Source: Desulfosudis oleivorans (GTDB lineage Bacteria; Desulfobacterota; Desulfobacteria; Desulfobacterales; SURF-7). From it: a stretch of DNA of 64,000 bases. Where the stretch lies: the NCBI GenBank assembly GCA_020723305.1, contig DYJC01000008.1, forward strand, positions 62,001-126,000, read 5' to 3'. Below the pieces are notes generated by a model. The model was given only the letters and a program-made list of their open reading frames with translations. It did not search any database and was not told where the DNA came from. How positions within the stretch are numbered: the first letter of the stretch is position 1; each line of letters starts with the position of its first letter. The position numbers were made by a program, and so were the translations under genes. Of this stretch, positions 5,080-55,558 are shown piece by piece.

Positions 5080-5157
5080 GAGCCAATCTCAAACGATTCA
5101 AAAGCGTCACACCGGCGAAGGCCGGTGTGACGCTTTTGAATCGTTTGAGATTGGCGC
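5080..5157. repeat. Near-perfect hairpin element of the GAGCCAAT family
   Basis: Two arms of about 36 bases (5082-5117 and 5122-5157) are complementary apart from one bulged A, with a 4-base loop. The left arm begins GAGCCAATCTCAAA and contains GCGTCACACCGGC. The same order of motifs occurs at the left end of the elements at 27445 and 54825, so this is a compact member of that dispersed family. It ends just before the hipBA promoter and could also stop upstream transcription. The 188 bases between it and the tRNA show nothing else. Confidence 0.75.
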
Positions 5158-5217: not shown

Positions 5218-5571
5218 ATGGCTCGATTATCTTTAGGTATTGAAGGGATGCCGAATTCCTTACGGAAGCAGCTCAAAATGCTGGGGGAACAACTATCTCT
5301 GGCCCGAAAGCGACGTGGCTTGACAATGCAGGATATGGCGGAAAGAATGTTTGTTACCCGGAAAACCCTCAAACGGCTTGAGGATGGCGATCCAGGTTGC
5401 AGTATCGGTGTCTTGTCATCAGCACTTATGGTATTGGGGTTGGAAGAGGACCTGAATCATCTTGCTGATCCAGACACCGACCATATGGGGAATGCGATTG
5501 ATCGCTCCAAATATGCAAAAACAAAGCGTGTTAAACCCTTGAAACCTAAACAGGTGGATATGAATTTTTAA
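5218..5571 (+). CDS. hipB: HipB-like antitoxin, XRE-family DNA-binding protein
   Basis: 117 residues. After a short N-terminus comes a helix-turn-helix of the XRE/Cro type at about residues 20-75 (LSLARKRRGLTMQDMAERM, then VTRKTLKRLEDGDP). It is followed by a charged, Lys-rich tail ending KPKQVDMNF, which in HipB proteins can contact the toxin. SD-like TAGAGG lies about 8 bases before the ATG. The stop is 5 bases before hipA, so the two are one operon with antitoxin first. Expected role: neutralise HipA and repress the operon through the palindrome at 5175-5194. Confidence 0.85.
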   Translation: MARLSLGIEGMPNSLRKQLKMLGEQLSLARKRRGLTMQDMAERMFVTRKTLKRLEDGDPGCSIGVLSSALMVLGLEEDLNHLADPDTDHMGNAIDRSKYAKTKRVKPLKPKQVDMNF

Positions 5572-25359: not shown

Positions 25360-27300
25360 TTATCTTTCAAAATAGGTGTATCCGCGCATCCCGGAACGGA
25401 AAGCATTCATAATCTTTTTTCGTTCCTTTGGGGTAATCAATCCATTCCGGATAGATTGTTCGGCAAGATTTCGAAATCGGGCAACCATGTCTTTGGTATC
25501 ATACTCTACATAGGATAGAACATCTTCAACAGAGTCACCTTCAATCTCCTTGATAAATTCGAAATCCCCTTCCTTTGAAATTTTGATGCTGACGATATTG
25601 GTATCGCCCAATAGATTATGCAGATCTCCTAAGGTTTCCTGATAGGCCCCAACCAGAAAAATTCCCAGGTAATATTCTTCATCCAATTTCAGATCATGAA
25701 GGGGCAGGGTGTTTTTCACATCGTATTGATCAATAAAACGATCGATTTTTCCATCGCAGTCACAGGTAATATCTGCCAGGATAACGTTCCGGGTAGGGGT
25801 TTCATTCAGCCGGTGAACCGGCATGATCGGGAAGAGATGACCAATGGCCCAGGAATCCGGAACAGATTGAAATACGCTGAAGTTTCCGTAATAAATGTCT
25901 GCAATGGAGGTTTCAATTCCTTCCAGTTCCTGTGGAATGGTTTTCAGTTTTTTTACTTCTTTGATGATCCGTTGAATTACATTCCAGAAAATGTTCTCAC
26001 ACAGTGCTTTTTCCCGCAGCGTGATGCTTCCGTGTTTAAAGAGCTGCCGGATTTCATCCCGGTAGTAAATTGCATCGTTATAGCACTCCTGAAGATTTTT
26101 GATATGCAGCACCTGCATGACATCCAACAGTTTGAACATGAGCTCATGGGATTCTTCCGGAAGTTTTGAGGGTATCGGATAGGTTTCAAAACAGCTTGCA
26201 TCCAGCACATTGAACAGCAGGACAGAGTAATATGCAACTGTTGCGCGACCCGATTCGGTTATGATGGTGGGGTGGGGGATGCCTTTTTCATCAAGGGTGC
26301 CCATGATCACCTCAATGATGTCCGCGCAATACTCGTCCAGTGAATAATTGCGGCTGCTGGTGTAGTTTGTGTGGGAGCCGTCATAATCAACCGCCAGCCC
26401 GCCGCCAAGATCCAGGTATTTCATGGAAGCGCCTTCAAGCACCAGCCCCTCATAAACACGGATTGCCTCTGTAACGGCAAGACGGATATCGCGGATATTG
26501 GGTATCTGAGATCCAAGATGGTAGTGAAGGAGTTGAAGACAATCCAGCATATTCGCATCCCGTAACTGATCCACTACTTGGAGAAGCTGAGTTGTATTCA
26601 ATCCGAAAATGCTTTTGTCTCCACTGGATTCCGTCCAATGCCCGCCTGCCTTGGTAGAGATTTTGATTCGGACGCCGATCAGCGGCTTGATATCAAGCGC
26701 TTTTGCCCGTTCCAGGATCAGGGGAAGCTCACTCGGCATTTCAATGACCAGGCAGCAGATGAATCCCATTTTTTTTGCATACAGCCCCAGGTCAATAAAC
26801 TCTTCATCCTTGTACCCATTGCAGATCAGACAGGCGTCCGGATCTTTCAGAAGGGATATGGCGGCAATCAGCTCGGCCTTGCTGCCTGCTTCCAGTCCGT
26901 GGTGATATCGTGAGCCAAAATGGGTGACTTCTTCAACCACCTGCTGCTGCTGATTGACCTTTATTGGATAGACACCCCTGTAAATTCCCTGATAACCATA
27001 CTCCTGAATGGCATGATTGAAGCTTTCGTGAAGCCGCATAATTCTGGATTGCAGGATATCACCGAATCGGAGAAGCACAGGCATACCCAATCCCCTGTCT
27101 TTAATTCCGGATATGATATCCATCAGGCTGACCGATTTTTTCCCTTTTTTTCCGGTCGGGTGAATGACGACTTCTCCTTTTTTGGAAATATCAAAATAGC
27201 CGGAGCTCCATTTCTGAATACCATAGAGGTCTCTGGCATGATCGATCTGCCATCGTTCCAGGATTGTTTTGTTCACTTTATTCTGTTTGGAATGATTCAT
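25360..27300 (-). CDS. speA: Biosynthetic arginine decarboxylase
   Basis: 646 residues, matching SpeA. WSSGYFDISKKGEVVIHP is followed by YRGVYPIKVNQQQQVVEEV with the PLP Lys. Later features are GSKAELIAAI, YHLGSQIPNIRDI, LDLGGGLAVDYDG, ITESGRATVAYYSVLLFNVL and, near the C-terminus, ITCDCDGKIDRFID, the Cys-x-x-Asp active-site region. It makes agmatine and CO2 from arginine in the cytoplasm, using Mg and PLP, and feeds putrescine and triamine synthesis with nspC downstream. A good sigma-70 promoter is visible at 27364-27392. The leader from 27301 to 27363 is short and shows no riboswitch-like fold. Confidence 0.96.
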   Translation of the reverse strand: MNHSKQNKVNKTILERWQIDHARDLYGIQKWSSGYFDISKKGEVVIHPTGKKGKKSVSLMDIISGIKDRGLGMPVLLRFGDILQSRIMRLHESFNHAIQEYGYQGIYRGVYPIKVNQQQQVVEEVTHFGSRYHHGLEAGSKAELIAAISLLKDPDACLICNGYKDEEFIDLGLYAKKMGFICCLVIEMPSELPLILERAKALDIKPLIGVRIKISTKAGGHWTESSGDKSIFGLNTTQLLQVVDQLRDANMLDCLQLLHYHLGSQIPNIRDIRLAVTEAIRVYEGLVLEGASMKYLDLGGGLAVDYDGSHTNYTSSRNYSLDEYCADIIEVIMGTLDEKGIPHPTIITESGRATVAYYSVLLFNVLDASCFETYPIPSKLPEESHELMFKLLDVMQVLHIKNLQECYNDAIYYRDEIRQLFKHGSITLREKALCENIFWNVIQRIIKEVKKLKTIPQELEGIETSIADIYYGNFSVFQSVPDSWAIGHLFPIMPVHRLNETPTRNVILADITCDCDGKIDRFIDQYDVKNTLPLHDLKLDEEYYLGIFLVGAYQETLGDLHNLLGDTNIVSIKISKEGDFEFIKEIEGDSVEDVLSYVEYDTKDMVARFRNLAEQSIRNGLITPKERKKIMNAFRSGMRGYTYFER

Positions 27301-27363
27301 TTTACTTCTTTCCGGAAATTAGGTTAAACTTTTATTTCATCCTGCTTTTAGACAATCTTTCAT

Positions 27364-27392
27364 ATTATACAGATAAACGATTTGATCTTCAA
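27364..27392 (-). promoter_or_regulatory. sigma-70 promoter of speA-nspC
   Basis: Read on the minus strand: -35 TTGAAG (27387-27392), exactly 17 bases, -10 TATAAT (27364-27369). It points at speA, whose ATG is at 27300, giving a leader of roughly 55 bases. It lies immediately downstream of the MITE-like element at 27445-27586. Confidence 0.7.
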
Positions 27393-27444
27393 CTGAAACC
27401 CTTATTTTTCAAAGGAACTGGTTTTTTTAATAGTTAAGACTGGG

Positions 27445-27586
27445 GAGCCAATTTCAAAACTATCAAAAGGCGTCACACCGGCGAAGGCCGGTGTCCAGAA
27501 AAGAATTGAAAATACTGGATAGCGCTTCACTTCTCTGGATTCCGGCCTTCGCCGGAATGACAACAACAGACTTTTGAAATTGGCTC
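27445..27586. repeat. MITE-like element, GAGCCAATTTCAAA ends
   Basis: 142 bases bounded by inverted repeats: GAGCCAATTTCAAA at 27445 and TTTGAAATTGGCTC ending at 27586. Inside are two smaller palindromes, CACCGGCGAAGGCCGGTG near 27476 and ATTCCGGCCTTCGCCGGAAT near 27539. No coding capacity. It lies between epmA and speA and may separate their transcripts, as the folded RNA would be a strong hairpin. It is the best-preserved copy of the family in this window. Confidence 0.85.
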
Positions 27587-27655
27587 TGGGTGTATGCGGT
27601 CAGTGATTTTGATTATACCGGATATGATTTTCAAAAAGAGAAAATTATACAATGG

Positions 27656-28576
27656 TTAAAGCTCCTCAGGCGTAAAAGTGACAACGTCATCAATTTTTTC
27701 CGCATTGGTCAGCAACATCATCAGTCTGTCCAGGCCAAGGGCATTGCCTGCTGCAGGGGGCATTTCCTCCAGGGATTGGAGAAACCGCTCCGGCATAGGA
27801 TAGACTTTTTTATCCATGGTTTTCCGGGATTCCAACTCTTTCTCAAATCGAGCCCGCTGCTCTTTTGGGTCTGTGAGCTCAGTAAAACAGTTACAAAGTT
27901 CAATTCCATTCATATACAGTTCAAAACGTTCCGCCAATTCTGGCTGAAGCGGTTTTCGTCTGGCCAGTGCTGCACAGGCCGAAGGATAATCATACAGAAA
28001 AACCGGCTTGCCATATCCGAGGCGGGGTTCGATTTCAATACCCATGATTTCATCGAATCGATTTTCTGCAAGTGCTTTTTCAACGGGTAATGAGCCATAT
28101 TGCATAAATGCATCCGAGACTCGGAGCCGATTCCAGGGGGGATGCATATCTGTTTTTTGATTTCTGAAATGGATAAATGGTTCCGGTTGCACGGAACCAA
28201 TAACTTCCGACAACATATTTTCGCATTCCGTCATCAGGTCAAGGTAAGTGGCGTTTGCCTGATACCATTCCAGCATGGTCAGTTCGGGAATATGAAAAGC
28301 ACCTCTTTCTTTCTCCCGGAAACATTTGCAGATCTGGAAAATTTTTTCATAACCGGAAGCCACGAGACGTTTCATGCAGAGTTCAGGCGATGTTTGCAAA
28401 AACCAGGAACCGGATTCCTGGGCATCGATATTGGCCTCTGGTGCAGGAGCAGGAATCCGGACAGGGGTTTCGACCTCAAGATATCCCGAACGGAAAAAAT
28501 AGGAACGGATGGCCTGAATGACTTTTGAACGCAGCACAAGATTGTGTTGTATGCGGGTCTGCCTGGAGTAGTGCAT
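27656..28576 (-). CDS. epmA: EF-P lysine ligase-like protein (EpmA/GenX)
   Basis: 306 residues, a class II lysyl-tRNA-synthetase catalytic core without the anticodon-binding domain. Motif 2 FQICKCFREKERGAFHIPELTMLEWYQA, then FELYMNGIELCNCFTEL and motif 3 GNALGLDRLMMLL are intact. In E. coli EpmA joins (R)-beta-lysine to a conserved Lys of elongation factor P, helping translation of polyproline. Neither efp nor epmB (the lysine aminomutase) is in the window, so the substrate is inferred. It starts 2 bases after the deacetylase-like gene with no clear SD, so translation is probably coupled. Its position in a unit that leads into speA-nspC is notable, since EpmA and polyamine enzymes both handle basic amines. 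Confidence 0.88.
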   Translation of the reverse strand: MHYSRQTRIQHNLVLRSKVIQAIRSYFFRSGYLEVETPVRIPAPAPEANIDAQESGSWFLQTSPELCMKRLVASGYEKIFQICKCFREKERGAFHIPELTMLEWYQANATYLDLMTECENMLSEVIGSVQPEPFIHFRNQKTDMHPPWNRLRVSDAFMQYGSLPVEKALAENRFDEIMGIEIEPRLGYGKPVFLYDYPSACAALARRKPLQPELAERFELYMNGIELCNCFTELTDPKEQRARFEKELESRKTMDKKVYPMPERFLQSLEEMPPAAGNALGLDRLMMLLTNAEKIDDVVTFTPEEL

Positions 28577-36762: not shown

Positions 36763-36788
36763 CAACAACGGACTGTTGAAATTGGCTC
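36763..36788. repeat. Remnant right end of the GAGCCAAT-family element
   Basis: CAACAACGGACTGTTGAAAT followed by TGGCTC matches the right end of the complete element at 27561-27586 in all but a few positions. The left half is absent. It lies between the Hpt and REC-phosphatase genes, inside one apparent operon. Confidence 0.6.
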
Positions 36789-54134: not shown

Positions 54135-54848
54135 ATGGCAAGATATAATGAAGTATCCTTATCCCGAAAAAAAGAACTTGAGGAACCGGATGAAGTCACA
54201 GAAAACCTGAGAAAAGTATTTGCGTTCATTTTGAAATATCGGGTTCGGATTGGTATCGGGGTCTGTATATTTTTTGTATTGATCCTTGGGGTTGTTGCAG
54301 TACAATATTTTTCAAATCTATCTGAGAATAAAGCTTCTTCCCTTTTGGATCAGGGGATTACTAAATATAATGAAATGCATAATGATAAAAAACCTGCTGA
54401 GATATGTGATCTGATTGAAGGTGATTTTAAAATAATAATTACCCAATATCCGAGGACAGTTGCCGGAAAATTTGCGATGCTTCAATTGGCAAATGTTTAT
54501 TACTCTGCGGATAAGTATAATGATGCCATTGCTTTATATGAGAAAGCCATAGAATCATTTGAAGGCCGTGTATTGTTTGAAAATCTTATTCAAATGGGAC
54601 TTGGACTTTGTCATGAGGCCAAAGGAGAGCACCAGAAAGCCATTGTATATTTTGAAAAGGTGATTTCCGATCCTAATAGTTTAATGTTGGAACAGGCCCT
54701 ATTTAATGCCGGTCGGATTTATGGGAAGATGGGAGAAGAGAGAAAACGTGTGGATGCATATAAAAAAATAGTATCTGATTTTAATAATTCTCTCTATTCG
54801 GATATTGCAAAAGAGTATATATCGGAGCCAATTTCAAAACGATTATAA
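54135..54848 (+). CDS. Membrane-anchored TPR protein (YfgM-like), C-terminus from a repeat element
   Basis: 237 residues. A charged N-terminus, one membrane helix (IGIGVCIFFVLILGVVAVQYF, about 38-58), then periplasmic tetratricopeptide repeats (AMLQLANVYYSADKYNDAIALYEKAIE, then QMGLGLCHEAKGEHQKAIVYFEKVIS and ALFNAGRIYGKMGEERKRVDAYKKIV). YfgM-like proteins help periplasmic chaperones or secretion. The last residues EPISKRL and the stop are encoded by the first bases of a MITE-like element starting at 54825, so the original C-terminus was replaced by the insertion. Confidence 0.8.
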   Translation: MARYNEVSLSRKKELEEPDEVTENLRKVFAFILKYRVRIGIGVCIFFVLILGVVAVQYFSNLSENKASSLLDQGITKYNEMHNDKKPAEICDLIEGDFKIIITQYPRTVAGKFAMLQLANVYYSADKYNDAIALYEKAIESFEGRVLFENLIQMGLGLCHEAKGEHQKAIVYFEKVISDPNSLMLEQALFNAGRIYGKMGEERKRVDAYKKIVSDFNNSLYSDIAKEYISEPISKRL

Positions 54849-54946
54849 AGCGTAACACCGGCGAAAGTCAGTGCTCAGAAAAGAGCTGAAAATACTGGAT
54901 TTTAGTTTTCGTCGGAACTACAACAAGAGACTTTTGAAATTGGCTC
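54825..54946. repeat. MITE-like element overlapping the end of the TPR gene
   Basis: 122 bases from GAGCCAATTTCAAAAC at 54825 to TTTTGAAATTGGCTC ending at 54946. It has the same ends and internal order (CACCGGCGAA, CTGGAT, CGTCGGAA, CAACAAGAGACT) as the element at 27445, but with decayed inner palindromes. It provides the stop codon of the upstream gene. Confidence 0.82.
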
Positions 54947-55558
54947 ATCGGGATAGAGGATTGTTTTTTCTTTACTGATTGAGAGCTACAAATTTTTCCT
55001 TTTAATAGTGTACTAATTCATTGACACTGACAATACGGACTGGTATTTTAAGCTTATGTGGTGCACGTAAGCAACTTTCTACTGATTTATAGCACCCTGT
55101 GACTATATCCTCTCATAACAAGAACTCACAAAAAAACAAATAGTTTCATAAGCATAGACGTATTCTGATTTTTATTTATAATTATCTATCAATCGGAAAG
55201 AAGGGTATCCTCATTATTGTTAATGATGCTACCATGATTCTTCATTTTTTTTACTGAAAACAGGAAAAAAGGGGGACGTAAAGACGGATTTGAAGAAAAT
55301 CATCAAATTTTTTGTATTTTTTTTAAAAATTGAACTACTATATATAGTATGTATTGTTATATAGGCACTATATAATGTAAATTATATATAATTATATAGG
55401 AATTATATAAAAATTATATAAAAAGTACTTGACTTAGCCATAATCTAGGATAATTTATGTCGCAAAGATGATAATCGATATAAATTTAGGTGACTATTTA
55501 ATCAAAAAGAATGAATTCAGGTCACATTAAACGTCAACTGTAGCAAGGTAAAAGAACT
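54947..55558. other. Long AT-rich non-coding region upstream of the pilus operon
   Basis: 612 bases without a credible ORF. A palindrome TACTATATATAGTA lies at 55336-55349. Four copies of AATTATATA start at 55380, 55390, 55401 and 55412. Directly after them lies TTGACT (55429-55434), a -35-like box for the XRE-pilM operon; the -10 (TAATTT near 55451) is poor. No tRNA or known structured RNA was recognised. Confidence 0.55.
55380..55420. promoter_or_regulatory. Four helically phased AATTATATA repeats before a -35 box
   Basis: AATTATATA occurs at 55380, 55390, 55401 and 55412, spaced 10, 11 and 11 bases, one helical turn each. It is followed within 9 bases by TTGACT. Phased A/T repeats upstream of a promoter can act as UP elements, curve DNA or bind a repeat-recognising regulator such as the XRE protein encoded next. 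Confidence 0.5.

Follow-up and report, generated by a model that had tools for sequence, protein, structure and literature searches.

A high-copy MITE family in Desulfosudis oleivorans and its candidate partner transposase among IS1182-like elements of Victivallales

Introduction

The window analysed in this work is a stretch of 64,000 nucleotides from the sulfate-reducing bacterium Desulfosudis oleivorans (contig DYJC01000008.1 of assembly GCA_020723305.1, positions 62,001 to 126,000). It exhibits four places where short repeats with similar ends recur. A sequence-only reading of the window had described them as a dispersed MITE-like family that may shape transcription. Two questions arise from this locus, namely whether the repeats are a true family of miniature transposable elements and which transposase multiplied them.

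Copies in the window

The four repeats were confirmed by direct reading of the sequence and their coordinates are listed in Table 1. The two repeats that had been called full copies have perfect 14-bp ends and exact 4-bp target duplications (TGGG and ATCG), and the one that had been called a half copy is a remnant of the right end. The other descriptions in the sequence-only reading stand in part. The internal order said to be shared by the copies is decayed in the 54825 copy, which has CACCGGCGAAAGTCAGTG in place of CACCGGCGAAGGCCGGTG, and the 5080 copy lacks the ATTCCGGC/GCCGGAAT and CAACAA..GACT modules. The latter copy is a hairpin as claimed, but it is a fold-back of the left arm and does not repeat the common layout on a smaller scale. 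Its left ~37 bp are followed by their inverted copy, which gives 35 uninterrupted pairs; the palindrome takes in 72 of the 78 positions, and damage is seen at the right end. Such a copy may have arisen from template switching at the hairpin. The statement that no copy is coding is nearly true, except that a TPR gene ends inside the 54825 copy, from which its stop and final 7 codons come.

Six ends were found in the window at no more than one mismatch, where a uniform expectation is 0.02. The 14-mer alone at up to three mismatches was found 16 times against 15.6 expected, which is the chance level.

Table 1. Features of the MITE family in the window, and loci of a second MITE of the same length class in the order.
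Feature	Position	Strand	Remark
Full MITE copy, 142-bp class	27445..27586	+	GAGCCAATTTCAAA at both termini; other genomic copies are 95-96% identical to it
Target duplication TGGG, left of 27445 copy	27441..27444	.	Direct read
Target duplication TGGG, right of 27445 copy	27587..27590	.	Direct read
Left terminal inverted repeat GAGCCAATTTCAAAA of 27445 copy	27445..27459	+	
Right terminal inverted repeat GAGCCAATTTCAAAA of 27445 copy	27572..27586	-	
Full MITE copy, 122-bp class	54825..54946	+	Overlaps 3' end of ORF 54135-54848 and gives its stop codon
Target duplication ATCG, left of 54825 copy	54821..54824	.	Direct read
Target duplication ATCG, right of 54825 copy	54947..54950	.	Direct read
78-bp fold-back derivative	5080..5157	.	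Left arm and its own inverted copy; without target duplication
Right-end remnant (half copy), 26 bp	36763..36788	+	
Second 142-bp MITE	Loci L316, L321, L322, L344, L371, L377 and others		

Copy number and transposition signature in the home genome

The home genome assembly (5.40 Mb, 47 contigs) was searched with the 14-mer end at no more than one mismatch. The search returned 414 matches (200 forward and 214 reverse) and the reversed control returned 1, i.e., the home genome contains on the order of 200 copies. The outcome that the earlier reading had set against itself, that only the window copies exist, did not occur. Three congeneric genomes exhibit 5, 250, and 140 ends.

From 80 home-genome loci and the window, 61 different elements were obtained in which both ends could be recognised, with half copies left out; the loci were picked by searches and the sample is therefore not random. 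The 122- or 142-bp body of the MITE consists of two inverted hairpin modules with 15-bp terminal inverted repeats (GAGCCAATTTCAAAA) and contains no gene. The lengths cluster at 122 bp (20 elements) and 142-143 bp (27 elements), which leaves no room for a transposase gene. Of the 61 elements, 43 are flanked by an exact 4-bp target duplication, and the flanks are off by one base in 4 and by more in 14. The control at shifted positions matches in 0.3% of cases and a 5-bp duplication was found in only one of the 61 elements. The duplicated tetramers exhibit no fixed motif. Some unpaired ends were also fetched from the home genome and its sisters as candidate ends of insertion sequences (IS); each proved to be a remnant or to belong to a copy whose partner end is damaged.

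Filled and empty sites were compared with a sister genome over few orthologous stretches, with aligned blocks mostly 86-94% identical, and one polymorphic site was identified. A 122-bp element with an AACT duplication (L070) is present in the sister genome and the home genome is uninterrupted at the same point. A relic of ~50 bp with both ends was also observed in the home genome (L028, around 400-475), near this site, which is filled by the full copy in the sister species. The hundreds of ends, the duplications, and the polymorphic site bear out the MITE-like nature proposed from the window, and the repeats are a true MITE family.

The same end in other genomes

The exact 15-mer GAGCCAATTTCAAAA was found in 65 of the 389 genomes of the order (the reversed control gave 7 matches in the same table). 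In the order to which a Victivallales MAG belongs, 59 of 137 genomes also have it, and no control matches were seen there. At no more than one mismatch of the 14-mer, a Treponema MAG exhibits 13 ends and the Victivallales MAG G005 exhibits 454 ends. The elements in both MAGs share these ends and often also the 4-bp duplication, and their interiors are different from those of the home-genome MITE. The 4-bp duplication was found in 11 of 23 end pairs of G005 and in 4 of 10 Treponema elements, including 3 of the 8 that are 37 bp long.

The 37-bp elements of the Treponema MAG (L125, L128, and L137) consist of little beyond the two ends, and some of them have exact 4-bp duplications. Elements of this length are hard to move by ordinary two-ended synapsis and have perhaps shrunk in place. 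One of them adjoins a 58-bp element with ends GAGCCTGTTCCAAAA/GAGGCTGTTCCAAAA (L137, 1439-1537), and ACAT duplications are present on both.

A second 142-bp MITE with another interior was identified in seven families of the order. Its 12 copies are 61-96% identical to each other; three further aligned copies are of other types and one locus yielded none. An element of IS5 type (two ORFs, DUF4096) whose ends, AAGCTATCTCAAAA / AAGCCATCTCAAAA, resemble the MITE end was observed in G001 (L103 / L312, 1347-2275).

Complete insertion sequences with these ends

In several genomes of the Victivallales order, contigs begin or break off 110-140 bp into a repeat that carries this end, as happens with collapsed multi-copy IS. 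The translated stretch just inside the end at one of these loci (L487) resembles the C-terminus of a transposase. The 43-residue L487 peptide was searched in 40 genomes. Matches at E<=10 were found in 17 genomes, and at least one match at E<=6e-8 was found in 8 genomes (G427, G431, G448, G404, G396, G401, G461, and G513), all of which belong to the Victivallales set.

Three complete IS of 1395-1396 bp were identified that are bounded by GAGGTAATTTCAAAA on one side and by GAGCCAATTTCAAAA on the opposite side, and all of them encode an IS1182-like DDE transposase. An exact 4-bp duplication flanks two of these three IS with ...TTTCAAAA ends, namely L511 (1396 bp, ATCC duplication, open frame of 371 codons) and L520 (1395 bp, ATGT duplication, open frame of 380 codons). 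The third (L510) is flanked by a 5-bp repeat. A fourth and more distant IS (L499, 1510 bp) has ...TTGCAAAA ends and is without an exact 4-bp duplication. The end GAGCCAATT[T/G]CAAAA was found in 13 of the 15 fetched transposase loci, which are those of the 21 matches at E<=6e-8 that came with a locus.

Five transposases were scanned with profile models. DUF772 (36-52 bits) and DDE_Tnp_1 (31-57 bits) are above cut-off in all five. NCBIfam IS1182 is the best model for all five (73-100 bits), and its curated cut-off of 270 is not reached. ISUnCu17 itself scores 80 bits against this model, so the cut-off excludes the whole clade, and the elements are therefore named IS1182-like or ISUnCu17-like in this work. 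The R(3)E(6)K arrangement is the signature of the IS4/IS5 superfamily. D147, D279, R323, E327, and K334 are invariant in an alignment of nine transposase proteins, and these residues are consistent with that signature. Three relatives of the transposase were found in viral contigs, all of them cut by contig edges. A sequence search of PDB returned no match, and neither did a search of phages. The 15-mer scan of viral contigs gave no convincing end pair among the matches listed.

Searches for a transposase in the home genome and its relatives

The sequence-only reading had proposed a search for an autonomous transposase with the same ends. Complete IS with an intact transposase exist in another phylum, as described above, but none was found in the home genome. 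Models DUF772, DUF4096, and DDE_Tnp_1_6 have no match in the home genome, and the one match of DDE_Tnp_1 is without these ends. The partner proteins should have been seen with DUF772 and DDE_Tnp_1 if they had been assembled, given their scores with both models. The L487 peptide has only chance-level matches in the home genome (best E 0.28). An ISUnCu17-like transposase was found neither in the sampled Desulfobacterota nor in G005 with its 454 ends, and no IS that combines these ends with a 4-bp duplication is present in 50 contigs of G005 (404 kb).

Transposases of four Pfam families were inspected as candidates. None has matching ends among those with PF01609 (four congeneric and eight other end-rich genomes), PF05598 (40 relatives), PF13340 (six genomes), and PF13751 (12 genomes). 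IS1182 elements of other clades in the relatives have ends that start with GAG, but their flanks share 2, 3, or 5 bp and not 4. The partner was either lost or is unassembled in the home genome, unless transposition there depended on visiting elements.

Origin of the MITE family

The copies are very probably non-autonomous MITEs that owe their multiplication to a DDE transposase acting in trans, from an IS1182-like clade close to ISUnCu17. The transposase clade, end type, and duplication length agree with the MITE, because ISUnCu17 and its Comamonas and Acinetobacter relatives have ends that start with GAG and 4-bp duplications. The transposase would recognise the terminal 15 bp of the MITE and would cut the target with a 4-bp stagger that leaves the 4-bp target duplication. 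A transposase of this clade probably moved the home-genome copies, and it would once have been present in the home lineage or have passed through it. The home-genome family is now apparently orphaned. Only one of the two IS ends is identical to that of the MITE, which has GAGCCAATTTCAAAA on both sides, and no likeness was noticed between MITE and IS beyond the 15 bp.

It is unlikely that the mobilising enzyme was some other DDE transposase of Desulfobacterota, unseen so far, which shares the 15-bp end by coincidence and would make the Victivallales IS a cousin only. Such an enzyme would account for the lack of any ISUnCu17-like transposase in the sampled Desulfobacterota genomes even though 65 of the 389 genomes of the order have the exact end. 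However, the 15-mer is identical and the 4-bp duplication is the same in IS and MITEs, and the end variants GAGGT, GAGGC, and GAGCC match between them as well. Short-read MAGs also often lose multi-copy IS, as at the Victivallales contig ends.

We tentatively suggest, as a possibility that is doubtful at present, that one transposase specificity has been frozen in a common pool of orphan MITEs with GAGCCAATTTCAAAA in Desulfobacterota, Spirochaetota, and the Victivallales group. This pool would be repeatedly re-mobilised by horizontally passing ISUnCu17-like elements and not by a resident transposase, and the MITEs would also travel between families, with 142-bp elements that are 61-96% identical in seven of them.

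Genomic surroundings and folding

The 61 elements were placed with a crude ORF caller. Seven lie inside a called ORF, 12 are unplaceable, and 42 (of the 49 placed) lie between ORFs. The inter-ORF sites are tandem in 29 cases, divergent in 11, and convergent in 2; adjacent ORF pairs in the window are tandem in 40 cases, divergent in 6, and convergent in 6. A gene 3' end lies within 50 bp of the MITE in 19 of 33 cases. In the window, the 27445 copy is flanked by a class-II tRNA-synthetase-like gene and a gene for arginine decarboxylase, the 36763 remnant is flanked by an Hpt gene and a response-regulator/SpoIIE gene, and the 5080 derivative is situated upstream of a helix-turn-helix gene. At the end of the TPR gene, the joined empty site of the 54825 copy would stop one codon past the insertion point.

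The predicted RNA folds are -71.0 kcal/mol for the 27445 copy (z-score -11.5), -38.2 kcal/mol for the 54825 copy (-4.7), and -69.5 kcal/mol for the 5080 derivative (-17.0). An effect of the copies on transcription is possible since these folds are strong and the placement is mostly intergenic. It is improbable that selection maintains the copies, however they arose, in a role as terminators or attenuators of transcription or as hairpins for RNA processing. The inter-ORF placement, the nearby gene 3' ends, the excess of divergent over convergent sites, and the very stable hairpins are in favour of such a role. However, purifying selection alone predicts an intergenic bias, no intrinsic terminator was found at 27300-27700, and the 122-bp copy at 54825 folds much more weakly than the 27445 copy. 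REP/BIME-type palindromes moved as single-stranded hairpins by a RAYT (Y1 transposase) would share the two inverted hairpin modules, the strong folding, and the mostly intergenic placement, but a target duplication is not expected from RAYT/IS200-type insertion, and this origin is strongly disfavoured by the 43 copies with exact 4-bp duplications and by the DDE enzyme encoded in the IS with these ends, which leaves it hardly credible.

Two further observations concern the window copies. TTGACA comes immediately after the 5080 derivative, with TATAAT 19 bases further along (by eye), upstream of the helix-turn-helix gene at 5218. Positions 27453-27582 exhibit an Rfam match to WsnRNA46 (Wolbachia sRNA 46) of 42 bits, which is below the cut-off of 65. 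Membership in WsnRNA46 was rejected, as only the common two-hairpin layout with GTCA...TCCAG arms is shared; WsnRNA46 may itself be MITE-like.

Discussion

The findings in this work describe a MITE burst of about 200 copies, and the one autonomous relative identified for it belongs to another phylum. The surprise lies in the exact end across phyla together with the missing resident transposase. How orphan MITEs keep moving becomes testable, as it can be asked whether the transposase of a distant host accepts these ends. With the end sequence and the duplication length, annotators can also mask these repeats, which number in the hundreds and disrupt short-read assembly in the groups concerned.

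One of the closest known systems is ISUnCu17, an IS1182-like element of an Aeromonas caviae plasmid, whose transposase is 44% identical to that of the Victivallales IS. The plasmid relatives as a whole are 39-45% identical. ISUnCu17 is 1483 bp long with GAGCCTCTTGCAAAA and duplications ATGA/TCCT. The Comamonas relative (1438 bp) has the duplication TGGT and the Acinetobacter relative (1416 bp) has TTAG. These elements are similar to the MITE and the IS in their 15-bp ends that start with GAG and finish in TTGCAAAA and in their 4-bp duplications. Unlike the MITE, they differ at several inner end positions, are autonomous, and live in other hosts. The end sequence GAGCCAATTTCAAAA was not found in the main text of the open papers searched, and neither ISUnCu17 nor a Desulfobacterium MITE was found there.

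MITEs with IS1182 partners have been reported. According to the available part of one paper, a MITE of Methanosarcina acetivorans (160 bp, 14 copies, DR 4) has the partner ISMac2 (IS1182), and it differs from the home-genome MITE in its 26-bp ends, its low copy number, and a partner from the same host (PMC3852290). The same excerpt reports that no likeness between MITE and IS beyond the ends is usual for prokaryotic MITEs (PMC3852290). MITEPye1 of Paracoccus yeei, as described in the accessible portion of its report, is an intergenic hairpin with IS1182-like ends that is thought to be trans-mobilised by IS1182; it differs from the home-genome MITE in its 18-bp ends and its 1-3 copies per chromosome (PMC11578231).

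ERIC, Correia, and similar MITEs, as far as covered by the consulted sections of a review, resemble the home-genome MITE in their up to hundreds of mostly intergenic copies and differ in their ends and in the measured expression effects of several of them (PMC10969869). The copy number found in this work is high but not unique, because ERIC reaches up to 711 copies in the same sections (PMC10969869). IS1182-derived MITEs are thus already in print, and what is unusual here is the copy number and the ends that are common to several phyla.
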